From Phenylobacterium sp. (GTDB lineage: Bacteria; Pseudomonadota; Alphaproteobacteria; Caulobacterales; Caulobacteraceae): a DNA stretch of 64,000 nt. Both the position numbers and the translations under genes were made by a program. Positions 24,012 through 39,012 of the stretch are shown in pieces (the first letter of the stretch is position 1; each line of letters begins with the position of its first letter). Location: contig NZ_JAUYOJ010000080.1 of the NCBI RefSeq assembly GCF_030697925.1, positions 1 through 64,000 of the forward strand, in the 5' to 3' direction. The notes below the pieces were generated by a model, which worked only from the letters and a program-made list of their open reading frames with translations, was not told the DNA's origin and ran no database searches.

Positions 24012-24087
24012 GGGCCTGTAGCTCAATGGTTAGAGCCGACCGCTCATAACGGTCTGGTTGTAGGTTCGAGTCCTACCGGGCCCACCA
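24012..24087 (+). tRNA. tRNA with CAU anticodon, probably tRNA-Ile2
   Basis: The 76-nt cloverleaf is complete. Acceptor GGGCCTG pairs with CGGGCCC, D arm is GCTC/GAGC, anticodon stem is GACCG/CGGTC with loop CTCATAA (anticodon CAT), T arm has GGTTCGAGTCC, and the encoded end is ACCA. The 8-nt D loop and overall similarity to E. coli tRNA-Ile2 favour lysidine-modified Ile decoding AUA; elongator Met is the alternative. It is not initiator Met (no GGG-CCC anticodon stem pairs). Confidence 0.93.
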
Positions 24088-24130
24088 GCGCGCTTCCGTG
24101 GACGTCCATGCTCGGAACCGTCCAGCGGGA

Positions 24131-24146
24131 ACTTGCAATACGATAC
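24131..24146 (+). promoter_or_regulatory. Putative HxlR operator, site A
   Basis: ACTTGCAATACGATAC, 66 nt before the acyl-CoA synthetase start. It matches 14 of 16 positions of site C at 26943. Confidence 0.6.
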
Positions 24147-24212
24147 TGACTATGCGAGCGCTGGCGACGAGGCGGGACTCGACCCGCCGCTCATCCTGAC
24201 CCGGAGGCGAGC

Positions 24213-25901
24213 TTGCGCCCTAGTCCGCCCGAACGCGTTGCAGAATACCGCCGTCGGGGGTGGTGGCGGGGCCAGACCGTCGACGCGCTGTTCCGCGCGG
24301 CGGTCTTCGCGCGCGCCGGCGCAGAAGCCTTGATCGACGCGCCAAACCGGCAAGCCCTGGTGGGGACAGCGCCGCGGCGGCTGACCTTTGCCCAGGTCGA
24401 CGCCCAGGTGGACGCCATGGCGCAGGTCTTCGCAGGGCTCGGGGTCGGCCGTGGCGACGTGGTGGCCATCCAACTTCCCAATCTGGTGGAAGGGGTGTTG
24501 GCCCTCCTGGCCTGCGCCCGCATGGGCGCGATCCTGAGCCCGGTCGCCATGGCCTATCGTGGCCACGAGCTGCGCCAGATCCTGCCCATCATCGAGCCGA
24601 AGCTGTACCTAACGGTGGGCGACTTCCACGGTTGCGACCACGCAGCCATGCTGCTGGATTTGAAGGGCCAGGGCGCGACCGACGCCGCGATTGTTCGCCT
24701 CGGCGCCGAGGCGCCCGATGGGGCCCACGCCCTGGACAGCCTCCTCGCCGAGGCCGCGCCCGCGCCCTACGCCACGCCGTCCGACCTCGACGCCGCCGAG
24801 GCGCTGACCATCTGCTGGACCTCGGGCACCGAAGCCGCGCCCAAGGGCGTCCCGCGCCACCACGACCATTGGGTGGTCAATGGCGAGGGCCTCGTGGAGG
24901 CTGCGGGGCTCGAGGCCGGCGACACCATCCTGAACCCGTTCCCCCTGATCAATATCGCCGCCATCGGGGGCATGGTGATGCCCTGGCTGGTCTGCCAAGG
25001 CCGGCTGGTCCAGCATCATCCCTTCGACCTGCCGGTCTTCCTGTCCCAGATGCAGGACGAAGGCGTGGCCTACACTGTCGCCCCGCCGGCGGTGTTGAAC
25101 ATGCTGCTGCAGAATGAGGCCCTGCTGTCGGCCACGGACCTCTCCAGGCTGCGCTGCCTGGGCTCCGGTTCGGCGCCGCTGGCGCCCTGGATGGTGAAGG
25201 GCTGGCAGGACCGCCACGGCGTGACCGTGATGAACGTGTTCGGCTCCAATGAGGGCGCCTCGCTGTTCTCTACCGGACGAGCGATACCGGATCCGGAACA
25301 GCGGGCGCGGTTCTTCCCGCGGTTCGGGGTCGAGGGGCTGGACTGGGGGGCGGATTTTCCGGGCAAGATCGTCACCCGGTTGGTCGATCCGGAGACCGGC
25401 CGGGAGATCGTCGCGCCGGGGGTTGAGGGCGAGCTGCGCATCGCCGGGGCCATGACCTTCGACGGCTATGTGAAGGCGCCGGAACTGACCCGCCAGGCCT
25501 TCGACGACGAGGGGTTTTTCCGTACCGGCGACCTGTTCGAGATCGCGCCGGAGGCGGGCGGTCGCTACTACCGCTTCGTCGGTCGCCGCAAGGAGATCAT
25601 CATCCGCGGTGGGCTGAACATCTCGCCGGCCGAACTGGACGTGCTGATCGAGAGCCATCCCAAGGTGCGCGAGGCGGGCTGCGTGGCCTATCCCGACGAG
25701 CGGCTCGGCGAGCGGGTCTGCGCGGTGGTGGCCCTGCGGCCAGGCCAGGACCTGACCCTGGATGAGTTGAACACCCACCTGCGGACCCACGACATTGCGA
25801 CGTACAAGCTACCGGAGAAGCTGCGGGTCATTGAGGCCCTGCCGCGCAATCCCCTGGGCAAGGTGTTGCGGCGCGACCTGTCGGGTGTCGCGGCGAGCTG
25901 A
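24213..25901 (+). CDS. AMP-binding acyl-CoA synthetase
   Basis: 562 residues of the ANL superfamily, which activates a carboxylic acid to acyl-AMP and then acyl-CoA. The P-loop is WTSGTEAAPKGVP (about 205-217), the A5/A8 region shows FGSNEGAS and FFRTGDLFEI, followed by YYRFVGRRKEIIIRGGLNISP, and the catalytic Lys is in NPLGKVLRRD. The start is a TTG with ribosome site GGAGGCG; the usual N-terminal domain is complete from there. It is the first gene of the island with the repeated operator. The substrate is not readable from sequence. Confidence 0.88.
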   Translation: MRPSPPERVAEYRRRGWWRGQTVDALFRAAVFARAGAEALIDAPNRQALVGTAPRRLTFAQVDAQVDAMAQVFAGLGVGRGDVVAIQLPNLVEGVLALLACARMGAILSPVAMAYRGHELRQILPIIEPKLYLTVGDFHGCDHAAMLLDLKGQGATDAAIVRLGAEAPDGAHALDSLLAEAAPAPYATPSDLDAAEALTICWTSGTEAAPKGVPRHHDHWVVNGEGLVEAAGLEAGDTILNPFPLINIAAIGGMVMPWLVCQGRLVQHHPFDLPVFLSQMQDEGVAYTVAPPAVLNMLLQNEALLSATDLSRLRCLGSGSAPLAPWMVKGWQDRHGVTVMNVFGSNEGASLFSTGRAIPDPEQRARFFPRFGVEGLDWGADFPGKIVTRLVDPETGREIVAPGVEGELRIAGAMTFDGYVKAPELTRQAFDDEGFFRTGDLFEIAPEAGGRYYRFVGRRKEIIIRGGLNISPAELDVLIESHPKVREAGCVAYPDERLGERVCAVVALRPGQDLTLDELNTHLRTHDIATYKLPEKLRVIEALPRNPLGKVLRRDLSGVAAS

Positions 25902-25906
25902 ATGCG

Positions 25907-25922
25907 GCTTGCATAGTCACAC
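25907..25922 (+). promoter_or_regulatory. Putative HxlR operator, site B
   Basis: GCTTGCATAGTCACAC, 59 nt before the first tandem HxlR regulator gene. This position would allow autoregulation. Confidence 0.55.
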
Positions 25923-25981
25923 CCGTTCCGCGACTCTTGGAGACCTGAAGTTTTCCGGGCCTTCAAGAGCAAGCCTGACCC

Positions 25982-26929
25982 ATGACGTCGCCGAAATTCA
26001 TCCGCACCTGCTCGATCTGGCGGGCGCTGGAGGTGGTTGGAGACACCTCCGTCCTGCTGATCCTGGAGGCCTCCTGGATCGGGGCGCGGCGTTTCGATGA
26101 GTATCGCGCCCGCACGGGCCTGCTGCAGACCCTGCTCAGCGACCGGCTGAAGCGGTTGGTGGCGGCCGATGTCCTTGAGAAGGCGCTCTACAGCCAGTCG
26201 CCGCCCCGGTTCGAATACCGCCTGACCCGCAAGGGTCGCGACCTCTACTGGCCGGCCCTGATGATGCTGCGCTGGGAGCGTCGCTGGAGCGCGCCGGAGG
26301 GCAAGCTGCAACTGCGGCTGCGGCACCGGACCTGCGGTCAGGTCTTCGAGCCCGTGCCCACCTGCCTGAAATGCGGCGACGAGATCAGCGCCCGCGATGT
26401 GGACTGGACCGAGGGGCCTGGAGTCGGCTGGATGGCCGCGCGCTACAGCCGCCGCCGCCAGCAGCGCCACGCCGCCGAGGCCTCTTCCTCCTTGATGGTC
26501 GACGTGGCCCAGATCACCGGCGACAGGTGGGCGAGCCTGGTGCTGCGCTCGATCTTCACGGGCCTGCGCCGGTTCGACGAAATCCACCGTGATACGGCCA
26601 TGGCCACCAACATCCTGTCGGAGCGCCTTTCCTGGCTCACCGCCTTCGGGGTGATCCGGGCCCACGACCTGGGCGGTCGGCGGTCCGAGTACCGGCTGAC
26701 CGAGAAGGGCATCGACTACTACCCGGTCCTGCTCATGCTGCTGCAATGGGGCGACAAATATTACGTCTCGCCCGAGGGCCCGCCGCTGCTGCTGCGCCAT
26801 AAGGCCCACGGACACGACCTGGAGCCCGCGGTCACCTGCTCCTGCTGCAGCCAGCCGGTGGAGGCGCACGACGTGACCTTCGAGGTGATCGAGGCCGAGG
26901 CCTCCCGAACGCTCGAGACGGCCGGCTAG
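25982..26929 (+). CDS. Transcriptional regulator with two HxlR domains in one chain
   Basis: 315 residues. Two HxlR winged-helix units are present: residues about 10-105 (IWRALEVVGDTSVLLILEA, RRFDEYRARTGLLQTLLSDRLKRLV, FEYRLTRKGRDLYWP) and about 170-262 (VAQITGDRWASLVLRSIF, RRFDEIHRDTAMATNILSERLSWL, SEYRLTEKGIDYYP). Each is followed by a cysteine-rich tail: C118, C128 and C131 after the first, and a degraded version with C286, C288 and C289 after the second. HxlR proteins are normally about 110-residue homodimers, so this looks like a fused dimer. A related protein is encoded at 31622. It probably controls the surrounding catabolic genes. Confidence 0.88.
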   Translation: MTSPKFIRTCSIWRALEVVGDTSVLLILEASWIGARRFDEYRARTGLLQTLLSDRLKRLVAADVLEKALYSQSPPRFEYRLTRKGRDLYWPALMMLRWERRWSAPEGKLQLRLRHRTCGQVFEPVPTCLKCGDEISARDVDWTEGPGVGWMAARYSRRRQQRHAAEASSSLMVDVAQITGDRWASLVLRSIFTGLRRFDEIHRDTAMATNILSERLSWLTAFGVIRAHDLGGRRSEYRLTEKGIDYYPVLLMLLQWGDKYYVSPEGPPLLLRHKAHGHDLEPAVTCSCCSQPVEAHDVTFEVIEAEASRTLETAG

Positions 26930-26941
26930 TTTCCCGCCAGT

Positions 26942-26964
26942 CACTTGCATAACGATACGAAGTG
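26942..26964 (+). promoter_or_regulatory. Putative HxlR operator, site C
   Basis: The core ACTTGCATAACGATAC at 26943-26958 is flanked by CACTT at 26942-26946 and its complement AAGTG at 26960-26964, giving a dyad. It lies 32 nt before the SDR start and is the best match to the consensus. Confidence 0.65.
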
Positions 26965-26996
26965 TGGATGATCAGTCTCGGGAGAGAGGTCGCCAC

Positions 26997-27932
26997 ATGC
27001 AAGAGACGATCGCGGAGAGCGCCGGACGCGCGCAGGACATGCGTGAGCGGGTGGTGATCGTCACCGGGGCGGGCAAGGGCCTGGGCCGCGCCTACGCCCT
27101 GGATCTCGCCGAGCGCGGCGCCTCAGTGGTGGTCAACAATCGCTGGAGCGACCGCGGCCAGGCGCCCAGCGCGGAGGCGGTCGTCGACGAGATCCGCGCG
27201 GCGGGCGGCCGGGCCGTGGCCAGTCTGGAGTCCGCCGAGGACCCGGGGGCTGGCGAGGCGCTGGTGGCCCAGGCCGTCGCCGAGTTCGGCCGCCTTGACG
27301 CGGTGGTCTCCAACGCCGGCGTGCCGGAGACCATTCGACTGCACCGGCAGACCCGCGACGGCTTCCGCCGGATCTTCGATATCAACTTCTTCGGCGCCCT
27401 CCACCTGATCCAGGCGGCTTGGCCGGCGCTCTCGGCGTCGGGGGCTGGACGGATCGTGGTCAGCACCTCGTCGGCCGGCCTGCACGGCGGCGACGGCATG
27501 ACGGGCTACGCCTCCTCCAAGGCGGCGTTGATCGGCCTCGTCCGGGGACTGGCCGTCGAGGGGGCGTTGCGCGCCGTGCGCATCAACGCCATCGCCCCCT
27601 ACGCCTTCACGGCCATGACCGAGCCGCATCTGCCGCCAGGCATGGCCGAACGGATGGACCCGGCGGCCGTGGCGCCCCTGGTCTCCTGGCTGGTGAGCGA
27701 GGCCTGCGATGTCACCGGCCAGACCCTGGTCAGCGGTGGTGGACGCCTTCGCGCGGCCTTCGCCGTGGAGGGTCGGCCCGTGGCCCTGGAAGAGGGTGCG
27801 ATCGGACCGGCGGTCCACACCGCCCTGAGGGCCGAGCCGCGCGAGGCCTATGGCGACGCCCACCAGGCCTTCGCGGCCTTCATGGACGGCCGCCCGACCT
27901 TGGCCCCGGATCGTCAGGCCATGGACGCATGA
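26997..27932 (+). CDS. SDR-family oxidoreductase (3-hydroxyacyl-CoA dehydrogenase-like)
   Basis: 311 residues. The Rossmann glycine motif is VTGAGKGLGRAYALDLAERGA, followed by NNAG-like VSNAGV. Catalytic residues are Ser in VVSTSSAG and Tyr-x3-Lys in YASSK. The extended C-terminal part resembles the SDR portion of peroxisomal MFE-2-type proteins. It probably oxidises a hydroxyacyl-CoA or alcohol with NAD(P). The ATG at 26997 with ribosome site GAGAGAGG is chosen over a GTG-like start at 26964, which falls inside the operator. The stop overlaps the next start (ATGA). Confidence 0.85.
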   Translation: MQETIAESAGRAQDMRERVVIVTGAGKGLGRAYALDLAERGASVVVNNRWSDRGQAPSAEAVVDEIRAAGGRAVASLESAEDPGAGEALVAQAVAEFGRLDAVVSNAGVPETIRLHRQTRDGFRRIFDINFFGALHLIQAAWPALSASGAGRIVVSTSSAGLHGGDGMTGYASSKAALIGLVRGLAVEGALRAVRINAIAPYAFTAMTEPHLPPGMAERMDPAAVAPLVSWLVSEACDVTGQTLVSGGGRLRAAFAVEGRPVALEEGAIGPAVHTALRAEPREAYGDAHQAFAAFMDGRPTLAPDRQAMDA

Positions 27933-29716
27933 CCATGCCCGCCGACGCCCTGGCCGCGCCGTTCCGCGAAGCCCACCTGATGCCCGTGGACCTGGAGGTC
28001 GAGCGGCGCGCCGATGGGACCGTCCTGATCACCTCGAAGATCCCGCTGCGCGCCTATGAGGCCAACATCCCCGCCGCCTTCGCGCGGCGGGCCGCGGCGT
28101 CGGGCGACAAGCCCGCCCTGGCCCAACGGGGCGCGGACGGCGCATGGGTCTTCACTTCGTTCGCCCAGCTCAAGCGCGACATGGACGCGGCCGCCCAATG
28201 GCTGATGGACCAGGCGCCGCCAGGCCCAGTGCTGATCCTGGCCGGTAACACGCCGGCCTTCGCGGTGATGAGCTTCGCCGCCCAGGCCGCCGGGCGCGCC
28301 GCCTGTCCGGTCAGCGTCACCTATGCGGCCCTGGGCGGCGACTACGGCCGCCTCGCCCACGTAATCGCCAAGGTGGAGCCCGCCGTGGTGTTCGCCCAGG
28401 ACAGCGCCATGGCCGCCGGGGCGCTCGAAGCGCTGGACCTGGGCGGAGCGAAGCTCGTCACCACCGACCCCTCGCGGGTGTCGAAACCGGCCGTGTCCTA
28501 TGCCGAGGTGCTGGCCACCGTGGCGACGCCCGAGGTCGCCAGATCCATCGATAGGTTGAAGCCCCACGACCGCGCCGCTCTGATGCTGACCTCGGGGTCC
28601 ACCGGCCTGCCCAAGGTGGTGCCGATCACCTTCGACAACCTCGCCGCCAACAGCGCCCAGTGCCAGCAGACCATCGGCGAGGCGGCGGGCTGGCATGAGG
28701 TGATGCTGGACTGGCTGCCCTGGCATCATGCGGCCGGGGCCTTCGTCCTGCGGACCACCCTGCTGGAAGGCGGCACGCTCTATGTCGACGACGGCAAGCC
28801 GGCGCCGGGCCTGTTCGAGACCTCGATCCGCAATCTGCGGGAGATTTCGGTCAGCTATTTCAACAACGTGCCGCTGGGCTACGCCATGCTGGCCGACGCC
28901 CTGGAGAAGGACCCGGTGCTGCGGGCGACCTTCTTCCGGAAGATGCGGCTGATGCTCTATGGCGGGGCAGGGCTCTCCCAGGCCGTCCATGACCGCCTGC
29001 AGGCCTGCGCGGTGGCCGAGACCGGCTGCCGCATCATGATGACCAGCGGCTACGGCATGACCGAGACCGTCTCCGCCTTCATGGTCATCCATTTCGAGAC
29101 CGATAAGGTGGGCATCGGCCTGCCGGCGCCGGGCACGACCCTGAAGCTGGCTCCGGTGGGCGACCGCTATGAGGTGCGGGCGCGGGGTCCGAACGTGACG
29201 CGGGGCTATCTCGATGAGCCGGAGAAGACGGCGCTCGCCTTCGACGAGGAGGGCTTCTACCGCACCGGCGACCTGGCGGTGTTCCACGACCCGGCCGACC
29301 CGACCCAGGGCCTGGCCTTCGCCGGCCGGGCGGCCGAGGAGTTCAAGCTCTCCAGCGGGACCTGGGTCTATGGCGGATTCCTGCGCGACGGCCTGATCAA
29401 GACCCTGTCGCCCCTGGTCCTGGACCTGGTGCTCTGCGACGACGGCCGGCCCTATCTGGGGGTGATGCTGTGGCCGACGGCCGGCTCCGATCCCGCGGAG
29501 ATCGCCCGGCGCCTGGCGGCGTTCAACACCGGCCAGCGCGGCGGCGCGGCGCGGGTGAAGCGCGCACTGCTGCTGACCGAACCCCCCAGCGCCAACGCTC
29601 ACGAAATCTCCGATAAGGGCACGATCAATCGCCGCGCCGTGATCGATCGGCGGGCCGAGCAGGTGGAGCGGCTGTTCGCCGAGGCGCCGGACGAGGGCGT
29701 CATGGCGCTGGGCTGA
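27929..29716 (+). CDS. Feruloyl-CoA synthase-like acyl-CoA ligase
   Basis: 595 residues of the ANL superfamily. The P-loop is LTSGSTGLPKVVP (about 215-227); GGAGLSQAVHDRL, SGYGMTETVS and FYRTGDLAVF follow. The segment FAGRAAEEFKLSSGTWVYGG.LR is typical of feruloyl-CoA synthases rather than fatty acyl ligases, and the catalytic Lys is in ISDKGTINRR. It should activate a phenylpropanoid or similar aromatic acid. It overlaps the SDR by 4 nt, so the two are coupled. A longer in-frame extension through the SDR gene is a shadow. Confidence 0.88.
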   Translation: MTMPADALAAPFREAHLMPVDLEVERRADGTVLITSKIPLRAYEANIPAAFARRAAASGDKPALAQRGADGAWVFTSFAQLKRDMDAAAQWLMDQAPPGPVLILAGNTPAFAVMSFAAQAAGRAACPVSVTYAALGGDYGRLAHVIAKVEPAVVFAQDSAMAAGALEALDLGGAKLVTTDPSRVSKPAVSYAEVLATVATPEVARSIDRLKPHDRAALMLTSGSTGLPKVVPITFDNLAANSAQCQQTIGEAAGWHEVMLDWLPWHHAAGAFVLRTTLLEGGTLYVDDGKPAPGLFETSIRNLREISVSYFNNVPLGYAMLADALEKDPVLRATFFRKMRLMLYGGAGLSQAVHDRLQACAVAETGCRIMMTSGYGMTETVSAFMVIHFETDKVGIGLPAPGTTLKLAPVGDRYEVRARGPNVTRGYLDEPEKTALAFDEEGFYRTGDLAVFHDPADPTQGLAFAGRAAEEFKLSSGTWVYGGFLRDGLIKTLSPLVLDLVLCDDGRPYLGVMLWPTAGSDPAEIARRLAAFNTGQRGGAARVKRALLLTEPPSANAHEISDKGTINRRAVIDRRAEQVERLFAEAPDEGVMALG

Positions 29717-29753
29717 CGGCCAGTTCGCGTGCGAACCTTGCGAAACCTGACTA

Positions 29754-29769
29754 ACTTGCATAGAGAGAC
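29754..29769 (+). promoter_or_regulatory. Putative HxlR operator, site D
   Basis: ACTTGCATAGAGAGAC, 46 nt before the DUF1295 gene and therefore in front of the DUF1295/nitronate monooxygenase operon. Confidence 0.6.
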
Positions 29770-29815
29770 TAATAGATCGTCCCCTTGAACGGGGCGGCAA
29801 ATCGGGGGTGAGGCT

Positions 29816-30625
29816 ATGCCGGATTTCGTCGTGGTGCTGGCGATCAACGCCGGGGTCGTCCTGGCCCTGTTCGTCCTGGCCTGGGCCGCCTGCGTGGCCA
29901 TGCGCGACTGCACGCCGGTCGACAGCCTCTGGGCCCTGGGCATGGGGGCGGTGGCCGTCTCGACCTTCCTGCAGACCGGCGGCGGCACGCCGCGGCGGGT
30001 GGTGCTGACGGCGATCTGCGTCGCCTGGGCCCTGCGCCTGGGCGGCTACATGCTGTGGCGCTGGCGCGACCATGGTCCCGACCGCCGCTATGTGCGGCTG
30101 CTGGACAAGGCCAAGACCGAACGCGGTTGGAACTACGGCTACGCTGCCTTCCGCCTGGTGTTCATGCTGCAGATGCCGCTGCTCTGGCTGGTCTGCCTGC
30201 CGGTCCAGCTGGGCCAGGTCGCCCCCGAATCCGCGGAACTCGGCGCCCTCGGCCTGGCCGGGGCGGGCCTTGCCGTCTTGGGCCTGATCTTCGAAAGCCT
30301 GGCCGACTGGCAGCTGGTCCGGTTCCGGAAGGACCCCGCCAATGAGGGCCAGGTGATGGACAGGGGCCTGTGGCGCTACACCCGCCATCCCAACTATTTC
30401 GGCGACGCCTGCGTCTGGTTCGGCCTTTGGCTGGTGGCCGCAGAGACCACGCTCGGCCTGTTCTCCATCGTCGGCCCGCTCTACCTGGTCTTCACCCTGA
30501 CCCGCTGGAGCGGCGTGCCGACCGTCGAGGGCCGCATGCGCCGCCGCAAGCCCGGCTACGAGGACTATATGCGTCGCACGTCAGGCTTCATCCCCTGGCC
30601 GCCCAAGCCGCCGGAAGTCGTCTGA
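29816..30625 (+). CDS. DUF1295 (steroid 5-alpha-reductase-like) membrane protein
   Basis: 269 residues with about six transmembrane helices. The C-terminal signature of the steroid reductase/isoprenylcysteine methyltransferase superfamily is clear: GLWRYTRHPNYFGDACVWFGLWL, then PTVEGRMRRRKPGYEDYMRRTSGFIPWPP. The family reduces double bonds of steroid-like substrates or has unknown function. It is followed 2 nt later by the flavoenzyme gene. In this island a role on a hydrophobic ring substrate is plausible but unproven. Confidence 0.88.
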   Translation: MPDFVVVLAINAGVVLALFVLAWAACVAMRDCTPVDSLWALGMGAVAVSTFLQTGGGTPRRVVLTAICVAWALRLGGYMLWRWRDHGPDRRYVRLLDKAKTERGWNYGYAAFRLVFMLQMPLLWLVCLPVQLGQVAPESAELGALGLAGAGLAVLGLIFESLADWQLVRFRKDPANEGQVMDRGLWRYTRHPNYFGDACVWFGLWLVAAETTLGLFSIVGPLYLVFTLTRWSGVPTVEGRMRRRKPGYEDYMRRTSGFIPWPPKPPEVV

Positions 30626-30627
30626 GC

Positions 30628-31551
30628 ATGTCCTTGCCGACACGCATCGCCGAGCGCCTGCGGATTCCCGCCATCGCCGCGCCGATGTTCCTGGTCTCCG
30701 GCGTCGACATGGTGCTGGCCGCCTGCAAGGCCGGGATCGTCGGGTCCTTCCCGGCCAACAACGCCAGGACCCTGGATGATCTCGACGCCTGGATGGGCCA
30801 GATCGCCGCGACCCTACCGGCTGACGCGCCGCCCTGGGCGATCAACATCATGGTCCACCGCTCCTATTCCCGCTGGGAGGAGGAGCTCGAACTGGTCCTG
30901 AAGCACAGGCCGCCGATCGTGATCACGGCGCTGGGCAGTCCAGCGGCGGTGGTCGAGGCGATTCATGCTTATGGCGGCGTGGTCTATGCCGACGTGAATT
31001 CCCTGACCTACGCCCAGAAGGCGGCCAGGACCGGGGTGGACGGGTTGATCCTGGTGGCGTCCGGAGCCGGCGGCCATACGGGGCCCCTGTCGGCCTTCGC
31101 CTTCACGCCGGCGGTGCGGGAGGTGTTCGACGGAACCATCGTGCTGGGCGGCGGGATCGGATCGGGCCAGGCCATCCGGGCCGCCCAGGTGCTGGGGGCG
31201 GACCTGGCCTATCTCGGCACCCGGCTGATCGCCTGCGAAGAGAGCCTGGCGGTTCCGGGCTACAAGCAGATGCTCATCGAGTCCGGCGCCGACGACATCG
31301 TCACATCCGCCGCCCTGACGGGGATCCCCGCCAACTGGCTGAAGGCCAGCCTGACGGCGGCGGGCTATGATTCCGAAGGCCTGAAGGCCAAGACCGAGAT
31401 CAATCTGGGCGCGCCCGAGGAGGCCGCCAAGCGCTGGCGCGACGTCTGGGCGGCAGGGCAGGGCGTCGGCGAGGTGCGGGCCGTCGAGCCCCTGGCGGCC
31501 ATCGTCGAGGCGTTGGCGCGGGAGTATGCGGAGGCGCGCCGCCGAGCCTGA
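30628..31551 (+). CDS. Nitronate monooxygenase-family flavoprotein
   Basis: 307 residues, TIM barrel with FMN. Seen: RIPAIAAPMFLVSG at the N-terminus, VYADVNSLTYAQKAARTGVDGLILVASGAGGHTG (substrate and FMN loop with the conserved His), and IVLGGGIGSGQAIRAAQVLGADLAYLGTRLIACEES (phosphate-binding loops). Members oxidise nitronates or act as other FMN-dependent oxidoreductases. The gene is 2 nt after DUF1295 in the same operon. Confidence 0.88.
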   Translation: MSLPTRIAERLRIPAIAAPMFLVSGVDMVLAACKAGIVGSFPANNARTLDDLDAWMGQIAATLPADAPPWAINIMVHRSYSRWEEELELVLKHRPPIVITALGSPAAVVEAIHAYGGVVYADVNSLTYAQKAARTGVDGLILVASGAGGHTGPLSAFAFTPAVREVFDGTIVLGGGIGSGQAIRAAQVLGADLAYLGTRLIACEESLAVPGYKQMLIESGADDIVTSAALTGIPANWLKASLTAAGYDSEGLKAKTEINLGAPEEAAKRWRDVWAAGQGVGEVRAVEPLAAIVEALAREYAEARRRA

Positions 31552-31621
31552 GCCGGGCGTCCCGCGGCCTTGACAAGCCTGGTTCGGGACAGAAGGGTCG
31601 GGGTCCGAAACCAGAGGCGAC

Positions 31622-32581
31622 ATGGCCGACCGCACCAGCATCCCGGACAGGCCGCCGCTCCCCCAACTGATACAGGCCAACTCGGCCACCCGAGCGCTCA
31701 ATGTCCTGGGGGACCGCTGGATCCTGATGATCCTCTATCTGGCGTTCCAGCGGGTCCGCCGGTTCGATGAGTTCCAGGGCAAGATCGGCCTGGCGCGCAG
31801 CCTGCTGATCGGACGCCTGCGCCGCCTGCAGGCTGTCGGCATCCTCGAGAAGGTGCGCTATCGCGAGCGGCCGATACGCGAGGAGTATCATCTCTCCGAG
31901 ATGGGCCGGGACCTCTACAGCCTGGCCCTGATGATCATCCGCTGGGAGAAACGGTGGTTCTACGACGCGGCCGATCCCGCCCATCGCCTGAAGCACAAGT
32001 GCGGCCACGAGTTCACGCCGGAGTACCGCTGCGGCCATTGCGGCGAACTGGTCAGCCCGCGCGACGTCTATGCCGAGGCCGGTCCGGGGGCCGGCTACGA
32101 TCCGTCCCTGCCGCCGCGCGCCCAACGGCGCTCCAGCGTTCCCGGCGGCGCGCTCAACCAGGGCAATCCGATGCTGGACCGCGCCTTCCAGGTGCTGGGC
32201 GACCGATGGACCAGCCACGTGATCGCCTCGGCCTTCATGGGACGGCGACGTTTCAACGATTTCCAGAACGCGCTCGGTGTGGCCCCCAATATCCTGTCGG
32301 ACCGGCTATCGCGACTGGTGGAGTTGGGCGTGCTGCGCCGGGAGCTCTACCAGCAACGACCCGATCGCTGGGAATATCGGCTGACAGACGAGGGACGCGA
32401 CCTCTACCCTTTGATCGCTGAGCTGATCGGCTGGGGCGACCGCTGGCTCGACGATGGCAAGGGACCGCCGTTGATCACCTACCATCGCACCTGCGGCCAC
32501 AGGCTGGCGGCCAAGGTCACCTGCGACCAGTGCGGCGAGGTGGTCGACGCGTTCAACGTAACGCCGTCGGCTCCCGTCTAG
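31622..32581 (+). CDS. Second regulator with two HxlR domains and two zinc ribbons
   Basis: 319 residues. HxlR unit 1 is at about 20-112 (ALNVLGDRWILMILYLAF, RRFDEFQGKIGLARSLLIGRLRRL, EYHLSEMGRDLYS) and unit 2 at about 183-275 (AFQVLGDRWTSHVIASAF, RRRFNDFQNALGVAPNILSDRLSRL, EYRLTDEGRDLYP). Each is followed by a complete CxH...CxxC ribbon: C127-H129-C137-C140 and C291-H293-C301-C304. Architecture is the same as the protein at 25982, so the two are paralogues. No operator copy is seen just upstream. It follows the flavoprotein gene by 70 nt. Confidence 0.88.
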   Translation: MADRTSIPDRPPLPQLIQANSATRALNVLGDRWILMILYLAFQRVRRFDEFQGKIGLARSLLIGRLRRLQAVGILEKVRYRERPIREEYHLSEMGRDLYSLALMIIRWEKRWFYDAADPAHRLKHKCGHEFTPEYRCGHCGELVSPRDVYAEAGPGAGYDPSLPPRAQRRSSVPGGALNQGNPMLDRAFQVLGDRWTSHVIASAFMGRRRFNDFQNALGVAPNILSDRLSRLVELGVLRRELYQQRPDRWEYRLTDEGRDLYPLIAELIGWGDRWLDDGKGPPLITYHRTCGHRLAAKVTCDQCGEVVDAFNVTPSAPV

Positions 32582-32582
32582 G

Positions 32583-33017
32583 TCAACTTGCGGCCAGGGG
32601 GCGGTCGAGCAGGCTGTCGACCTGGGCGCTGAGCGGCTCGCCGGCCTTCTGCTGGGCCGCGACGCCAAGATCGACATAGTCGCGCCAGCCGACGATCAGG
32701 TCGCCGCGGAAGTCGAGCACCCCGGCATAGGGCGTGGCCACGCGCTTGCCGTCGCTGGTGCGGTAGTCGTCGACGCCTTCGACGAATAGACGATCGCCGG
32801 TCTCGGAATAGGAGAAGATTCGCCATTCGATGGCGTGCATGTCGGCCTGGAAGCGTTCCAGGAGCTTGCGCGCGGCGGCCTTGCCGCGGACCGGCGGCAT
32901 GGCGGCGGCGGCATAGTGCCAAACGATGTCGTCAGCCATGTGGGAGAGGACCCGGTCGACATCCTTGGCCTGCCAGGCCTCGATGACCTGGCGGAGGATC
33001 TCGTAGCGGCGGCCCAT
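32583..33017 (-). CDS. NTF2/SnoaL-like protein, limonene-epoxide-hydrolase type without the Arg
   Basis: 144 residues, cone-shaped NTF2 fold. The end resembles limonene-1,2-epoxide hydrolase (VEGVDDYRTSDG then VGWRDYVDLG): both Asp positions are kept but the catalytic Arg position is Gly, so chemistry may differ. No signal peptide. The ribosome site GGAGG lies about 8 nt before the ATG. It is convergent with the HxlR gene (1-nt gap) and downstream of the TonB receptor on the same strand, so probably in its operon. Confidence 0.8.
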   Translation of the reverse strand: MGRRYEILRQVIEAWQAKDVDRVLSHMADDIVWHYAAAAMPPVRGKAAARKLLERFQADMHAIEWRIFSYSETGDRLFVEGVDDYRTSDGKRVATPYAGVLDFRGDLIVGWRDYVDLGVAAQQKAGEPLSAQVDSLLDRPLAAS

Positions 33018-33078
33018 GGGCGGTCCTCCAGGCAAAGGGAACGGCCGGGCGGAGGTCCGCCCGGCCGCGCGGTGAAGG

Positions 33079-35346
33079 CTAGAACGCCGCGGAGACTTCC
33101 ACACCGTAGGTCCGGGGCGCGCCGAAGGACGACATCTCCTCTTGGAAGAAGGGGATGATGTTGGTGCGATACCGGGTCTTGCCCAGGTTCTTGCCGTAGA
33201 CCGACAGGGTCCAGTTCTGGTCGGGCACGGTCAGGGTCACCCGGCCGTCGAGGGTGCCGTAGTCCTTCTCCCAGGTGGTGTTTTCCGGCGCCCAGGGCAT
33301 CTTGCCCTGCCAGCGATAGGCCAGGCGGGCCGAAAGGGCGTCTTCCCAACCGCCGACATCGGTGGTGACCTCGGCGCCTACCGCCAGCTGCCATTTCGGG
33401 GTTCGCTGCAGCAGTTTCCCGGAATTGTTGACGCCGGCGAAGACGAAGGTGTCGTAGGTGGCGTCCACGTAGCTGGTGCTGGCCCAACTGCGGAACCACG
33501 AGGTCGGCGCGAACTGCACGTCGCTCTCCACGCCCTTGATGGTGGCGCCAGGGGCGTTGCTGATCACGTTGCAGAGGCAGGAGGCCAGGGTCTGCTGCAC
33601 CTGCAGGTTCTTGTACTTCATGTAGAACACCGCGGTGTTCCAGCGAAGGATGCGGCCGAAGAGCTCGGTCTTGTAGCCGGCCTCGTAGTTGGTGACCGTC
33701 TCCGGGTCGTAGGGCGTGGCCGCGGCGAAGGCGTTGGAGGCGTTGTTCTGGAAGCCGCCGCCCTTGAAGCCCTTGGAAACCGTCAGATAGGCCATGTTCA
33801 GGTCGTCGGGCGTCCAACGCAGGGTGGCCTGCGGTGTCAGCTCCTTCCAGCTCTCTCCGTAGGCCGTCGCGAAGTTGACGGTCAGCGGGGTGAGTGGCGC
33901 GGTGTCGTTCGGATTCAGTCGGTCGCCGGTTGCCACGATGATGCCCCGCTGGAACCCGGTCTTCTCGTCGTGGGTGTAGCGGGCGCCGACGTCCAGCTTG
34001 ACGGTGTCGGTGATCTGGAAGCCGATCTGGGCGAAGATCGCCATGTCCTCGTTGCGGCCGTGGTCGTCCCAATGGGACTCGCCCGACAGGGTCGGCAGGA
34101 CCGTCGATTCACCCCAGAACCGGTTGTACTGGTGGACCTTGGTCTTCTGGTAATAGGCGCCGACGATCCAGTCGAAGCGGCTGTCGTCGTCCGTGGAGGT
34201 GAGGCGGACCTCTTGGGAGATCTGGTTCATGCCCTCAATGAAATTCACAGGTTCGGCGAACAGCAGCGGGGCGGCGACGTTGAAGCCGTTGGCCGGCCCC
34301 AGTCCCGTCTGGTCGTAGAGCGTGAACGACTGGTTGTTGCGATAGCCGGTGATGCTGGAGAACCGGATGTTCTCGGCCACGTCCTTCTCGACCTTGACGA
34401 TGATGTCGTAGGTCTTGTGCCGGGCGCTCTGCGGCGTCGGAGCGGCGTCGCCCTTGAAGTGCGGCCAGATCGGCAGGCTCTCGTCCAGGTCCAGGTGGCC
34501 GCGGCGCGCGGCGATCAGGGCGCGGGTGCCTGACCAGGGCGTGAAGCTGGCCGGCAGGGTGGGGCTCTTCAGTCCGACCCGATGGATGCCGTCATTGCTG
34601 TCCTTGGCGTAGTCGACATTCAGGCTCGCGCGTAGGTCGGAATTCTCGGGCGCGTAGGCCAACTGGACCCGCGCCTGGGTGGAATCCAGGTTTTCCAGCT
34701 CGGTGTTGTGCAGGATGTCCTTGTAGTAGCCCCCGCGGTTTATGGTCTGGAACGAGAGACGGCCGGCGAGGGTCTCGGTCAGGGCGCCGGTGAAATAGCC
34801 GGTGGTCTGGCGCAGGTCGTAGTTGCCCAGCGTCGCTGTGAACTTGCCCGAACGTTCGAAGCTGGGGGCGTTGCTGATGATGTTCACCGCGCCGCCGGCC
34901 ACGTTCTTGCCCAGCAGCACCCCTTGCGGGCCGCGCACGACCTCGATCCGGGCCACGTCGTAGAAGGCCGAGTTCAGGTTGCCCGAACGGCTCACATAGA
35001 CGTCGTCGACGAAGGTGGAGACCGACTGGTCGGCGGTCGGCGAGGAGAGGCGGGTGTTCACCACACCGCGGATGTTGATCTCGTTGGCTTGCGGCGAGTT
35101 CGCGGTGAACGAGATCCCGGTCATGTTGTGGCCGAGGTCTTCCAGGGTCAGGACCCGATCCTTGGCCAGGCTGGCGCCGGAGACGGCAGTGATCGCCAGG
35201 GGCGCGTCCTGGACGTTCTCCTCGCGCTTCTGGGCGGTGACGATCAGTTCTTCGAGTTGAGTGCTCTGGGCGGCGGCCTGGCCCGGCATGGCCATCGCCA
35301 TGCCCGAGAGCAGCGCGATGACGGACGTCGTGTGTTGCAGCTTCAC
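33079..35346 (-). CDS. TonB-dependent outer-membrane receptor of the catabolic island
   Basis: 755 residues from a GTG start. A signal peptide (to AAAQS, residue 27) is followed by a TonB box-like LEELIVTAQKREE, the plug domain (DAPLAITAVSGASL to VEVVRGPQGVLLGKNVAGGAVNII) and a 22-strand barrel ending GVEVSAAF with the terminal Phe. It imports a ligand too large or scarce for porins, using the proton motive force via TonB. The nearby enzymes suggest an aromatic or terpenoid ligand. A copy of the repeated operator lies 148 nt upstream. Confidence 0.93.
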   Translation of the reverse strand: MKLQHTTSVIALLSGMAMAMPGQAAAQSTQLEELIVTAQKREENVQDAPLAITAVSGASLAKDRVLTLEDLGHNMTGISFTANSPQANEINIRGVVNTRLSSPTADQSVSTFVDDVYVSRSGNLNSAFYDVARIEVVRGPQGVLLGKNVAGGAVNIISNAPSFERSGKFTATLGNYDLRQTTGYFTGALTETLAGRLSFQTINRGGYYKDILHNTELENLDSTQARVQLAYAPENSDLRASLNVDYAKDSNDGIHRVGLKSPTLPASFTPWSGTRALIAARRGHLDLDESLPIWPHFKGDAAPTPQSARHKTYDIIVKVEKDVAENIRFSSITGYRNNQSFTLYDQTGLGPANGFNVAAPLLFAEPVNFIEGMNQISQEVRLTSTDDDSRFDWIVGAYYQKTKVHQYNRFWGESTVLPTLSGESHWDDHGRNEDMAIFAQIGFQITDTVKLDVGARYTHDEKTGFQRGIIVATGDRLNPNDTAPLTPLTVNFATAYGESWKELTPQATLRWTPDDLNMAYLTVSKGFKGGGFQNNASNAFAAATPYDPETVTNYEAGYKTELFGRILRWNTAVFYMKYKNLQVQQTLASCLCNVISNAPGATIKGVESDVQFAPTSWFRSWASTSYVDATYDTFVFAGVNNSGKLLQRTPKWQLAVGAEVTTDVGGWEDALSARLAYRWQGKMPWAPENTTWEKDYGTLDGRVTLTVPDQNWTLSVYGKNLGKTRYRTNIIPFFQEEMSSFGAPRTYGVEVSAAF

Positions 35347-35494
35347 TGGTTTTTCCCCCGGGTCGGACCGGCCTGAAAGTCGCCGGAGGGCCCTGTTGTG
35401 TCCCGCGTTAGGCGGGGTTTTTCCGATGCGTTGAAGGGTGCGGCGTATTCAGGAAGGCCAGTCCAGGGCGGGTACGGTCGACGGTGCGGCGTCA

Positions 35495-35513
35495 ACTTGC
35501 ATAACAGCGCAAG
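35495..35513 (+). promoter_or_regulatory. Putative HxlR operator, site E
   Basis: ACTTGCATAACAGCGC followed by AAG. CTTGC at 35496-35500 and GCAAG at 35509-35513 form an inverted repeat with an 8-nt spacer. It lies 149 nt before the TonB receptor start, in opposite orientation to that gene. Confidence 0.6.
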
Positions 35514-35749
35514 CAACGGTCCGAGCTGGATTGGGCCTGCAGGCGTGACGGCCTGCGATCTGTCCTGGTTACGACTTTCCCTCGTTCTTTTTTCGGCTTG
35601 TCTACACCTCCGAGGTTAGGCGACTTTTTTAAGTCTCGTCAAGCAAGTCACTACCCGCGCGGGGCCCGAGGCGGTCGGTTCGGCGGCCCGCAACCGGCCG
35701 CCTGACGCGACGGATTCTGCGTCCGCCGAAATAGACTTGCCAGCCGTAG

Positions 35750-35765
35750 GTACTATTATGCAAGT
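35750..35765 (-). promoter_or_regulatory. Putative HxlR operator, site F
   Basis: Reads ACTTGCATAATAGTAC on the minus strand, 58 nt before the LEH-like gene on the plus strand. Confidence 0.62.
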
Positions 35766-35823
35766 TAATTTTCAACAAGGCCGGGGGCGCTCGGCCCCGT
35801 CGCCGCCACGGAGGACCCCCACC

Positions 35824-36240
35824 ATGACCGCGAAGCTTACGGACGAACAGAAGATCGCGATGGGTTGGGAGATGGCCCAGGCCTGGCGCGACCTGAATTG
35901 GCGCAAGGTCGCCGACATGTTCGCCCCCGACGGGGTGCTGCATTCGATGATGGTCGACCCCATCGTCGGCCGCGAAGCGGTCTACAAACGGGTCAGGGGC
36001 CTGGGCGAAGATCTGGCGTCGATCACCCTCAACATCCGCCAGATGGGCGTGATCGACGGCGTCCTCTACATGGAGCGCGTCGACGAGTTCGTGATCGCGG
36101 GCCGGCCGGGTTCGGTCCCGGTGGTCGGCGTGCTCGAGTTCGACGGACCGCTGATCAAGGCTTGGCGGGAATATTACGACCGCGCCCACCTGCTGAAGGC
36201 GATGGGCTTGGCGGAGGACTTCGACCAGAAGACCCGCTGA
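35824..36240 (+). CDS. Limonene-1,2-epoxide-hydrolase-family protein (cytoplasmic)
   Basis: 138 residues, NTF2 fold. The LEH catalytic triad pattern is complete: Arg85 and Asp87 in MERVDEF, and Asp119 in WREYYDRAH, with almost the same spacing as Arg99, Asp101 and Asp132 of the Rhodococcus enzyme. It should add water to an epoxide in one step. No signal peptide. It is a close relative of the exported protein at 39013 (shared GVL.SMM, VGR.A, RPGSVPVVGVL, WREYYDRA). Operator F lies upstream. Confidence 0.85.
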   Translation: MTAKLTDEQKIAMGWEMAQAWRDLNWRKVADMFAPDGVLHSMMVDPIVGREAVYKRVRGLGEDLASITLNIRQMGVIDGVLYMERVDEFVIAGRPGSVPVVGVLEFDGPLIKAWREYYDRAHLLKAMGLAEDFDQKTR

Positions 36241-36247
36241 GCGCCGC

Positions 36248-36634
36248 CTAACGCCCGAAGCTGCGCAGCGCCGCCGACTTGGCGGAGTCGAGATACTCGT
36301 CCAGGCGGGTGATGACGCCGTTCTCGATCCGCACCACGACGCAGGCGTCCATCGCCCACTTCGAGCCGTCGGGCAGGGTGGCCTCAAGGACGTGCTGCTG
36401 CAGGAACCCGTCGTGCAGGGCTTCGCGCCGCAGGACGCGGTAGTTGCGGTCGGGGAGGGTGCGGATGAACCAGTCCAGCACCTTCATGTTCTGGTCGACT
36501 GTCTGCTCGATCCCGTCGCTGTTGTGCCAGAGCTTGGCGTCCGGCGCGTAGCAGGCGCGCACGGTGTCGGTGTCGCCGCTCTGGATCGCGTCCACGAAGC
36601 GCTCGGCGAAGTCCAGGTATTGTTGAGGGGTCAT
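36248..36634 (-). CDS. NTF2/SnoaL-like protein
   Basis: 128 residues. The N-terminal helix and acidic ligand region (RACYAPDAKLWHNSDGIEQTVDQNMKVLDWFIRTL) and the sheet ending VRIENGVITRLDEYLDSAK give an NTF2-like fold of the SnoaL/ketosteroid-isomerase kind. It lacks the Arg-x-Asp pair of epoxide hydrolases. Substrate unknown. It lies 11 nt after the SDR gene on the same strand (SDR, then this gene), so they are co-transcribed. Confidence 0.8.
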   Translation of the reverse strand: MTPQQYLDFAERFVDAIQSGDTDTVRACYAPDAKLWHNSDGIEQTVDQNMKVLDWFIRTLPDRNYRVLRREALHDGFLQQHVLEATLPDGSKWAMDACVVVRIENGVITRLDEYLDSAKSAALRSFGR

Positions 36635-36645
36635 GGGTCTCTCGC

Positions 36646-37404
36646 TCAGCGGCCGGTGGTGACGCGCTCGCCCGACAGCGAGCGGCGCATGGAAAGTTCG
36701 AGGGCCTTGGGGTCGCGGGCCAGATTGGCGCGCACGTCCACGGCCATAAAGTCGGTGTCCACCTCGTCGGCGCCTTTGCGGATCGCCTTCAGGCCGGCCT
36801 GGGCGATGGTGTCGGGGGTTTCCTTGAACCCCTCCACATGGCTGGCCATGCGGGTGTCGACCGAGCCCACGATCAAGGCCGTGACGCTGGTGTTCTGGGC
36901 CGCGAGCTCGGCGCGGACGCAGGTGGTCATGGCGCGGCCTGCGAACTTGGAGGGACTGTAGCCGCCCATGCCGGGCACGGCGACGATGCCGCCCGCCGAC
37001 AGCACGTTGGCTATGGCGCTCTCATTGTGGCGGCCCAGGATCGGGGCGAAGGCGCGGCACATGGCCAGAGGGCCGAAATAGTTGATCTCCATTTCCGAGC
37101 GCGCGGCCGACAGGTCCGGCGCCGTCATCAGGGTTTGCATCGAGAACTGGCCGGCGTTGTTGACCAGGATACTGACGTCCTGGCACTGGGCGGCGGCGGC
37201 CTCGATCTGTTCGGGCTTGCTGACGTCGAGGCCTACGGCGACCACGCGACCGCCGCCTTCGTCGATCAGATGCCGGGCGTTGGCGGCGTCCCGCGTCGCC
37301 ACATAGACCCGGGCCGATCCCGCGGCCAGGAAGGCGCGCACGAAGGCCTCGCCGATGCCGCGGTTGCCGCCGGTCACCAGGGCGACGCTGTCCTTGAGTT
37401 CCAT
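36646..37404 (-). CDS. SDR-family oxidoreductase
   Basis: 252 residues. Cofactor motif VTGGNRGIGEAFVRAFLAAG, LVNNAGQ, and catalytic Tyr-x3-Lys in YSPSK. The catalytic Ser is in NVLSAGG. It should interconvert an alcohol and a carbonyl with NAD(P). It is part of the minus-strand run carotenoid oxygenase, SDR, NTF2-like, so it may act on the aldehyde or alcohol released by the oxygenase. That link is inference. Confidence 0.88.
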   Translation of the reverse strand: MELKDSVALVTGGNRGIGEAFVRAFLAAGSARVYVATRDAANARHLIDEGGGRVVAVGLDVSKPEQIEAAAAQCQDVSILVNNAGQFSMQTLMTAPDLSAARSEMEINYFGPLAMCRAFAPILGRHNESAIANVLSAGGIVAVPGMGGYSPSKFAGRAMTTCVRAELAAQNTSVTALIVGSVDTRMASHVEGFKETPDTIAQAGLKAIRKGADEVDTDFMAVDVRANLARDPKALELSMRRSLSGERVTTGR

Positions 37405-37419
37405 CGTCGTCGTCCTGAA

Positions 37420-38907
37420 CTAGGTTGCGGGGGCGTCGACGAAGCCGTTGCGGATCAGCTCGCGGTCGGCCCACACCGAATGGGTGCCGCTGGAGAGCTT
37501 GTGCGGCAGGGCGATGCGGACCACCGGCCCGTCGGCGAAGCGCTTGGCGTCGATCAGCACGCACTCCGAGGTCTGGGTGTTCTCGTCGATGATGAAGCTC
37601 ACCAGATAGCCGTCGTCCTCGTCCTTGGCGCCGATGCGCGGGACGAAGGGCGCTTCGCTGGCGTAGCGGCCCTCGGGCAGGGTCACCTCCCAGGACTCCC
37701 CGGTCTCCAGGTCGTGCTTGACGAAGCCGGTGAACAGGAACCAGCCGGGCTTGCTGGTGGTCGAGTAGGCGTACCGATAGGGCTTGCCGGCATGGCGCTG
37801 GTTGAACATCCCGAATTCAAGGACGCGGTCGTCCAGGTGGCCCTCCGTGGTCTCGCCGGTCTTCAGGTTGAAGCGCCAGCGGTGCAGCTTGGGCAGGAAG
37901 GAATGCTCGTCCAGGAAGCCCATCATGTGGCCGTGGCCGTCCGGCGCGCCGGCCAGGGGACCCGGCGTGGGGTTCTCCTCGAAGTAGCCGTCCATGACGA
38001 TCTCGTCGCCGTCCTCATAGGCGTTGAGGAAGTGCAGGATGTAGGTGGGATCGGCCTCGAACCAGCGGACATCCTTGGCGTCGCCGTAGCGCGGGATGAC
38101 CCCGAAGCGGGACGGCAGGCCCCGGTGGGCGCGCACCGCATGGATGCCGCGTTTCAGAAGCTCTTCGTCCCAGAACACCGGCAGGTCGTTGAGGATCGAA
38201 TAGTGTTCGGTGAAGGCCATGTCGTGCGGCAGGCGGGGCCCGGGCAGGGGTACGGGCGTGTAGTGGGTGAGCTTCCCGTGCCGGTCGACCACCCCGTAAT
38301 GCATGTAGGGCGCATGCTTGGAATAGTTGAAGAACAGCAGCTCGCCGGTGGCCTCGTCGACCTTGGTGTGGGCCGAGACGCCATCCAGCGGCCCCCAGCT
38401 CGCCACGCCGCCCTGCTCGAGGGTCTCGGGGTCCAGCCAGTAGGCCTCGCCGCATTGATAGAAGGTCGAGACGATCTTGCCGCCATGCACGACCACGTCT
38501 GTGGAGGATGAATCCTTCAGGCCGCCATGGGCGCCGAAGCCGGGCCGCAGGGAGACTTCGGGTCCGTCCATCAGCCCGCCCCAGAGCGCCTGGCCCGCCT
38601 CCTGTTCCGTCTCGAAGCCGCGGGTGCGCACAAAGCGGTTCCGGTAGTCGGCACGGCCGCCTTTGAAGCTGATCATGTGCAGCATCCCGTCGCCGTCGAA
38701 GGGATGGTAGCGGCCCAGGGGCTGCTGCACGGGGTTCTCTGTGTTGCGCACATAGACCCCGTCGATGTCGGTCGGGATGGCGCCTTCGATCATCTCCAGG
38801 TCCGTGGCGTCGACCTCTTCATGCAGCGGCGTCCAGGCCCCGGTCAGATAGGGGTGGTTGCTGGGCCGCAGCGACGTCTTCACCGGCGCCAGGCGCTCCA
38901 TCTTCAT
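37420..38907 (-). CDS. Carotenoid-cleavage-type dioxygenase (lignostilbene dioxygenase family)
   Basis: 495 residues forming a seven-bladed propeller with non-haem iron. The four iron ligands are visible: His180 (VSAHTKVD), His228 (LPHDMAFTEHYSI), His292 (ILHFLNAYEDG) and His476 (SGTHSVWA). The family cleaves a C=C bond of carotenoids, apocarotenoids or stilbenes into two carbonyls. No signal peptide, so cytoplasmic. The start MKMERL has a second ATG two codons on. It heads the operon with SDR and NTF2-like genes. The neighbouring feruloyl-CoA-synthase-like ligase favours a stilbene-like substrate, but carotenoid use is not excluded. Confidence 0.92.
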   Translation of the reverse strand: MKMERLAPVKTSLRPSNHPYLTGAWTPLHEEVDATDLEMIEGAIPTDIDGVYVRNTENPVQQPLGRYHPFDGDGMLHMISFKGGRADYRNRFVRTRGFETEQEAGQALWGGLMDGPEVSLRPGFGAHGGLKDSSSTDVVVHGGKIVSTFYQCGEAYWLDPETLEQGGVASWGPLDGVSAHTKVDEATGELLFFNYSKHAPYMHYGVVDRHGKLTHYTPVPLPGPRLPHDMAFTEHYSILNDLPVFWDEELLKRGIHAVRAHRGLPSRFGVIPRYGDAKDVRWFEADPTYILHFLNAYEDGDEIVMDGYFEENPTPGPLAGAPDGHGHMMGFLDEHSFLPKLHRWRFNLKTGETTEGHLDDRVLEFGMFNQRHAGKPYRYAYSTTSKPGWFLFTGFVKHDLETGESWEVTLPEGRYASEAPFVPRIGAKDEDDGYLVSFIIDENTQTSECVLIDAKRFADGPVVRIALPHKLSSGTHSVWADRELIRNGFVDAPAT

Positions 38908-38967
38908 CAGGGGTCTCCGAATTTCGATCCTGGCGGCCAGCGCCCTTGAATTCAGCCTAGCACCATG

Positions 38968-38983
38968 GTCTTGTTGTGCAAGT
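38968..38983 (-). promoter_or_regulatory. Putative HxlR operator, site G
   Basis: Reads ACTTGCACAACAAGAC on the minus strand. It lies 60 nt before the carotenoid oxygenase start and 29 nt before the exported LEH-like gene, so one site could serve both divergent promoters. Confidence 0.58.
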
Positions 38984-39012
38984 GACACCTGGAATTAAGA
39001 CCCGGAGGAATG

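Follow-up and report, generated by a model that had tools for sequence, protein, structure and literature searches.

HxlR regulators and their palindromes are already known, and to our knowledge the regulators are common and little studied. The HypR, YodB and QsrR type senses redox state, and its members are single-domain HxlR/DUF24 regulators without fusion. We know of no operator for PA1607 or PA1374. Each of these two proteins is a single unit (PDB 2F2E and 4GCV, respectively). HxlR of Bacillus subtilis (PDB 7BZG; PMC7835342) is, in the accessible part of its report, a formaldehyde sensor, seen in the crystal as a single-domain dimer on a perfect palindrome. The same part of that report describes an engineered HxlR-cpYFP-HxlR protein that also carries two HxlR units in one chain; these units are identical, and the construct is an artificial sensor rather than a gene regulator. 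Here, we analyzed 64,000 nucleotides of Phenylobacterium sp. (RefSeq assembly GCF_030697925.1, contig NZ_JAUYOJ010000080.1, positions 1 to 64,000 of the forward strand; 'the window' denotes this whole stretch), in which an island at 24-39 kb encodes two tandem HxlR regulators, Hx1 and Hx2, and carries a repeated operator-like site. Hx1 and Hx2 belong to the same DNA-binding family as B. subtilis HxlR (PF01638) but differ from the systems above in their fused, non-identical domains and unequal half-sites, and Hx2 lacks the sensing cysteine of HypR, YodB and QsrR. Among the matches listed from the open-licence literature, titles and opening lines of abstracts describe no tandem HxlR regulator, operator or regulon of this kind.

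Judged from sequence comparison, the sites in this island are probably the operators of Hx1 and Hx2 acting as built-in dimers; this judgement includes the assignment of domains to half-sites, the division of sites by the base at position 13, and likely repression. Both proteins contain two stretches that match the HxlR winged helix-turn-helix model, PF01638, with scores of 104.8 bits in Hx1 and 139.8 bits in Hx2 (cut-off 20.8), and the two halves of Hx1 are 38% identical to each other. At 315 and 319 amino acids and two domains each, they depart from the family's usual homodimer of single chains of about 100-150 amino acids; the two domains in one chain thus identify Hx1 and Hx2 as a fused variant of the HxlR family. 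The fold agrees with that of solved HxlR proteins, the predicted Hx1 model having a local distance difference score (pLDDT) of 91.5 and a template modelling score (pTM) of 0.89. In the phylogenetic tree Hx2 falls into a clade apart from Hx1, and a candidate sensing cysteine near the N-terminus, Cys10, is invariant in 12 Hx1 proteins and has no counterpart in Hx2. The Hx1 genes at L121, L123 and L125, from metagenome bins labeled Comamonadaceae/Ramlibacter, lie inside the Phenylobacterium/Caulobacter group of this tree, reflecting either gene transfer or misbinning. The operators and regulators of the island are listed below; T13 and G13 refer to the base at operator position 13, and scores are from a 22-column family matrix that had the window's own sites in its training set.

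24129 to 24149, forward strand: operator A, T13 class, upstream of CoA ligase A; 26.4 bits; own-genome profile match
25905 to 25925, forward strand: weak operator B, left half only, upstream of Hx1; 10.5 bits; equivalents in 7 other islands
25982 to 26929, forward strand: Hx1, tandem HxlR-HxlR regulator, 315 amino acids
26941 to 26961, forward strand: operator C, T13 class, upstream of the SDR1/ligase B operon; 30.9 bits; best own-genome match
29734 to 29754, forward strand: secondary weak operator, 18 bp upstream of operator D; 14.2 bits
29752 to 29772, forward strand: operator D, G13 class, upstream of the DUF1295-NMO-Hx2 operon; 33.1 bits; profile match
31622 to 32581, forward strand: Hx2, second tandem HxlR-HxlR regulator, 319 amino acids
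35493 to 35513, forward strand: weak operator E, left half only, upstream of the TonB receptor; 10.2 bits; like sites in 4 islands
35630 to 35650, reverse strand: operator F, G13 class, in the TonB receptor/LEH2 gap; 26.6 bits; profile match; kept in other islands
35747 to 35767, reverse strand: operator G, T13 class, upstream of LEH2; 31.5 bits; profile match
38965 to 38985, reverse strand: operator H, G13 class, between the carotenoid oxygenase and LEH4; 25.8 bits; profile match

When up to 3 mismatches were allowed, ACTTGCATAACGATAC matched the window at 24131, 26943, 29754, 35633 (reverse), 35750 (reverse) and 38968 (reverse), i.e., six times against 0.03 expected from 100 shuffles. The initial annotation had proposed seven sites, and a match was indeed found at each of its coordinates. 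Five of these score 25.8-33.1 bits; the remaining two, at 25907 (10.5 bits) and 35495 (10.2 bits), match in the left half only and are close to the window background, the next unrelated matches scoring 9.8 and 8.3 bits. The site at 25907 has equivalents in 7 other islands, and it may possibly serve autoregulation of Hx1; sites resembling 35495 occur in 4. The proposed list was also incomplete, as it omitted the strong site at 35633 on the reverse strand (26.6 bits); a weaker extra site is present at 29736. Exact ACTTGCATA was found in 4 of the 7 sites first listed. Over the whole 4.8-Mb genome, the same tolerance of 3 mismatches returned 9 matches, 6 of them inside the island; the reversed control pattern returned 3. 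The genome-wide motif search that had been suggested along with the seven sites was performed with a 22-position profile derived from 65 sites (the own-genome search scored 150 of its 155 first-look candidates), and all 6 matches at E<=10 were located at 24.1-39.0 kb of the window, confining the profile matches of this genome to the island.

The information content over 214 distinct sites covers positions -2 to +18, and the operator is best described as an imperfect inverted repeat of 21 bp, TnACTTGCATAACGAKACTnA, where K is T or G. The inverted repeat is best centered on position 8, with a similarity of 0.68 (p=0.021 against column permutation), and the half-sites, TnACTTGCAT and (reversed) TnAGTMTCGTT, are related and unequal. 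A direct repeat of period 14 was rejected, its similarity of 0.50 being no better than permutation (p=0.37). In the HxlR co-crystal oligonucleotide CAGTATCCTCGAGGATACTG, as given in the accessible part of PMC7835342, the ACT of the GATACT half-site lies 6.5-8.5 bp from the dyad, nearly equal to the 6-8 bp that separate ACT from the dyad in the island operator. A conserved, left-half-site-like CTTGCCA is located at 35736-35742, within a few bases of operator G and on its LEH2-distal side, and it occupies the same place in other islands.

The motif was also sought in orthologous islands, as the initial annotation had recommended, and was found to be kept there as well as beside other tandem HxlR genes. 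Hx1 has a match at E<=1e-30 in 81 of 249 family genomes, and 17 genomes besides the window's own carry an Hx1 that is 75-92% identical over nearly its full length. Gene order is conserved in most islands of these close relatives, and sites recur before ligase A, Hx1, gene X (absent from the window), SDR1, DUF1295 and the carotenoid oxygenase and in the TonB receptor/LEH2 gap, although not every island carries every one of them. A first matrix, trained only on the window and loci L039-L053 (67 distinct sites), was used to scan 45 further loci (L054-L098), almost all of which carry diverged tandem HxlR genes. It produced 134 matches of at least 11 bits, with at least one in every locus, whereas the reversed matrix produced 15 and 20 column-permuted matrices averaged 7.35 (largest 25). 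In a further 49 loci from a wider genome contig scan (L118-L166, a few being genomes already sampled), the family matrix gave 142 matches of at least 18 bits against 9 reversed and a mean of 3.0 permuted, covering 46 of the loci (the exceptions being L141, L160 and L161). Lowering the threshold to 13 bits brought the coverage to 48 of 49, at which level the reversed matrix already gave 71 matches against 183. Of ten class-level loci with regulators 31-70% identical, nine had a match of at least 12 bits (L169 did not, and L167 repeats L119). No match of at least 13 bits was present in 240 kb of control DNA, which comprised ten stretches taken from relatives and two taken from parts of the window beyond the island. 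Thus, the site stands beside nearly every examined tandem HxlR gene, in Caulobacteraceae and also in Sphingomonas, Hyphomonas, Maricaulis, Stappia and Kordiimonas. In two reduced islands, L039 (genome G163) and L054 (G039), Hx1 and the carotenoid oxygenase are still adjacent, the latter island also having a DUF1295 gene, which suggests that these genes form the regulon's core.

Association of the site with the regulator genes was equally evident at the genome level. Across 23 genomes, 86 of 91 profile matches lay on the contig of a tandem HxlR gene and within 23 kb of it, the other five being on contigs where no such gene was found; matches occurred in 17 of the genomes, 15 of which had also supplied profile sites, so that the association is to some extent built into this count. 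Six same-genus genomes without a tandem-HxlR match had no profile match. Either regulator as the sole binder was rejected: sites remain where Hx2 was not found at 1e-30 (L039, L050-L053 and L055, i.e., four genomes of one genus plus G163 and G019), although some genomes lacking an Hx2 match, including those of the four-genome genus, are only 83-97% complete, and they likewise remain in many loci with an Hx2-like gene alone. An apparent lack of sites in the Hx2-only loci L056-L058, seen in a pattern scan with up to 4 mismatches, was corrected by the matrix scan, which found single matches of 13-19 bits. In ten genomes of genus g22 (G035, G096, G106, G134, G167, G170, G185, G209, G218 and G221), ACTTGCATATCGATAC or ACTTGCATACCGATAC occurs away from a tandem HxlR gene, representing either a distant regulon member or a coding match.

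Position 13 of the operator is mainly T or G. In a first tally, T was found in 20 of 24 sites of Hx1-only loci and G in 103 of 126 sites of loci with an Hx2-like gene, while loci with both genes had 33 T and 28 G among 66 sites. A promoter-by-promoter tally of ten two-regulator islands sorted the mixture: T predominated before ligase A (10/10), gene X (7/9), SDR1 (5/7) and at the LEH2-proximal site (10/11), and G before DUF1295 (all 10 sites of nine islands, one of which has a second, weak site), in the middle of the TonB/LEH2 gap (9/13) and in the carotenoid oxygenase/LEH4 gap (3/3); four unassigned sites had G twice and A twice. The DUF1295 site has T in an Hx1-only genus (2/2) and G in Hx2-only Phenylobacterium (6/6). 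From these sequence patterns, T13 mostly pairs with Hx1 and G13 with Hx2, and each regulator probably has its own share of the sites.

The recognition helices vary along with the half-sites. The C-domain helix (TAMATNILSERL in Hx1) is nearly constant, as is the left half-site: sites accompanied by the usual C-helix have TKY as their left triplet in 247 of 277 cases, and those with other helices in 4 of 26. Clear left-half changes have two origins on the tree, one in a clade of four Kordiimonadaceae (ACTATT) and two Sphingomonadaceae (ACTTCA/ACTTCT), and the other in L091 (mostly ACTTCA/ACTTCC); L098, L168 and L174 belong to the unusual-helix set and yet have TKY sites. Most Hx1-type proteins have LLQT, LLPT or LLK- in the N-domain helix, and most Hx2-type proteins have ARS, PRN or PRS. 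Where the N-helix carries [AP]R, G13 is present in 108 of 138 sites, compared with 23 of 184 elsewhere; these helix/site counts treat related sites as independent and hence overstate the evidence. Only in L168 are the two helices closely matched, and both of its sites are near-perfect palindromes. A simple helix code was rejected in 20 single-domain HxlR loci, where it gave no match at up to 2 mismatches, fewer matches than control patterns at 3, and 6 one-off matches, none of them adjacent to the gene, compared with 3 in shuffled DNA. Several of these single-domain genes (L187-L206) share inverted repeats, such as TTGAATCCGAAC..GAGTCAA or AATCCGAAC..GTTCG, that lie some 70-130 nt ahead of the matched region and are perhaps their own operators.

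From the sites, their conservation, their association with tandem HxlR genes, the T/G partition and the covariation of helix with half-site, we infer binding, a domain-to-half assignment, repression and a ligand. Each regulator would be a single chain whose two winged-helix domains form a covalent pseudo-dimer on the 21-bp operator. Recognition of the conserved left half (ACTTKCAT) probably falls to the C-terminal domain, and that of the variable right half (GATACT or GAGACT) to the N-terminal domain. Hx1 would prefer the T13 sites of ligase A, SDR1/ligase B and LEH2, and Hx2 the G13 sites of its own DUF1295-NMO-Hx2 operon, the TonB receptor and the carotenoid oxygenase/LEH4 pair. A gene-facing site would probably lie over the -35 element and spacer of the promoter, with repression relieved by a pathway compound as the likeliest mode. 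In more general terms, we see an even chance that natural single-chain HxlR pseudo-dimers are widespread, that their half-sites evolve separately (C-helix with left, N-helix with right), and that position 13 split the island after duplication.

Two alternatives would remove the tandem regulators from the picture altogether. Binding by some regulator other than the HxlR proteins would accommodate the five profile matches on contigs without a tandem HxlR gene, but it appears improbable, as Hx1 and Hx2 are the only regulators among 14 scanned island genes, and the site accompanies tandem HxlR genes across families with differing neighbors and covaries with their recognition helices. Even less credible is a core promoter element, such as that of an alternative sigma factor. 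A -10-like hexamer does lie at a fixed distance in some gene-directed sites; however, conservation extends over 21 bp with some inverted symmetry, and the orientation is not fixed as in a sigma-factor element. Of 363 sites, 169 are within 150 nt before a same-direction gene and 113 before an opposite-direction gene, 29 being in both groups, while 106 are near no query gene and 4 lie within a recognized gene; the promoter element was rejected on this ground. These numbers agree with the initial annotation, which had argued for an operator from the window's own sites, correctly describing four as facing their gene, two as facing away and one as lying in a divergent gap.

The other two alternatives retain the fused HxlR proteins as binders, and each of them is possible though doubtful. 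If the proteins activate, they would resemble B. subtilis HxlR, which is called a transcriptional activator in the PDB and a positive regulator in the accessible part of PMC7835342, and the same-direction sites, mainly 24-120 nt before starts, could also be used by an activator. Against this, 41 of 133 gene-directed sites have a -10-like TAnnnT at +24 to +26, i.e., 16-18 bp past TTGCAT, which would place the left arm at the -35 position, such that a bound protein would cover the promoter and repression would be favored; on this sequence evidence, repression is moderately preferred over activation. If, instead, Hx1 and Hx2 both bind all sites, the T or G at position 13 would reflect promoter ancestry only. 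The T/G association, like the N-helix split, mostly follows a single old clade division in the tree, and G13 persists at Hx1-type loci: G163, with Hx1 alone, retains a G13 carotenoid-oxygenase site, L124 has G13 in 4 of 4 sites, and several Sphingomonas/Blastomonas loci have it at the carotenoid oxygenase. Such shared binding does not readily explain the sorting of T and G by promoter inside two-regulator islands, or the change of the orthologous DUF1295 site from T in a genus without Hx2 to G where Hx2 alone is present. A divided set of operators read by fused repressors therefore remains our preferred interpretation, although several observations weigh against it in addition to the Hx1-type G13 loci, the clade effect, the inflation of site and helix counts by shared ancestry and the incomplete genomes without Hx2. 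The inverted-repeat symmetry is modest, and the sites before Hx1 fit neither class (C 5, G 1 and T 1; n=7). Sites are lacking at L160 and L169 and are only weak at L141 and L161. Helix similarity did not predict operator palindromicity over 104 loci (rho -0.03), L168 alone fitting, and the 20 single-domain loci lacked the palindromes expected from a simple half-site code. Lastly, the -10-like peak comes mainly from related loci (ligA of one genus, and carotenoid oxygenases), and none of the window's sites is among the 21 with the hexamer at +24.

The remaining genes of the island are as follows.

24213 to 25901, forward strand: acyl-coenzyme A (CoA) ligase A (AMP-binding)
26997 to 27932, forward strand: short-chain dehydrogenase SDR1
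27926 to 29716, forward strand: CoA ligase B; closest NCBIfam model PRK12582, under its cut-off
29816 to 30625, forward strand: DUF1295 (steroid 5-alpha-reductase-like) protein
30625 to 31551, forward strand: nitronate monooxygenase-like / enoyl reductase-like protein (NMO)
32583 to 33017, reverse strand: LEH1, SnoaL/LEH-like protein; start set by eye
33079 to 35346, reverse strand: TonB-dependent receptor
35824 to 36240, forward strand: LEH2, LEH-like protein
36248 to 36634, reverse strand: LEH3, SnoaL-like protein
36646 to 37404, reverse strand: short-chain dehydrogenase SDR2
37420 to 38907, reverse strand: carotenoid cleavage oxygenase (RPE65 family); start set by eye
39010 to 39471, forward strand: LEH4, exported LEH/SnoaL-like protein

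The carotenoid oxygenase scored close to both apocarotenoid and lignostilbene models, all of them under their cut-offs, and the island enzymes would suit the degradation of a hydrophobic compound containing C=C bonds. At the left edge of the island, directly upstream of operator A, lies a tRNA-Met gene (24012-24087, anticodon CAT). The island of a relative, L044, contains two further genes, a DapB_N-type gene that separates Hx1 from SDR1 and a thiolase that separates SDR1 from ligase B, and other islands have gaps of similar size; the window (26929-27932) is without both genes. In its own genome, which is 90% complete, the DapB_N-type gene had no match at 1e-20, and the thiolase had only a 51% identical relative, located elsewhere.

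Overall, the analysis puts forward a specific operator and regulon, open to experiment, for a fused HxlR subfamily that occurs in Caulobacterales, Sphingomonadales, Hyphomonas, Kordiimonas and other groups. A fused dimer would allow each half-site to change alone, providing a clean natural system for the co-evolution of regulator and site after duplication. The putative regulon unites the carotenoid oxygenase, the two CoA ligases, DUF1295, NMO, the SnoaL/LEH proteins and the TonB receptor as what may be one catabolic pathway, the substrate of which can be sought through the ligand of its regulator.

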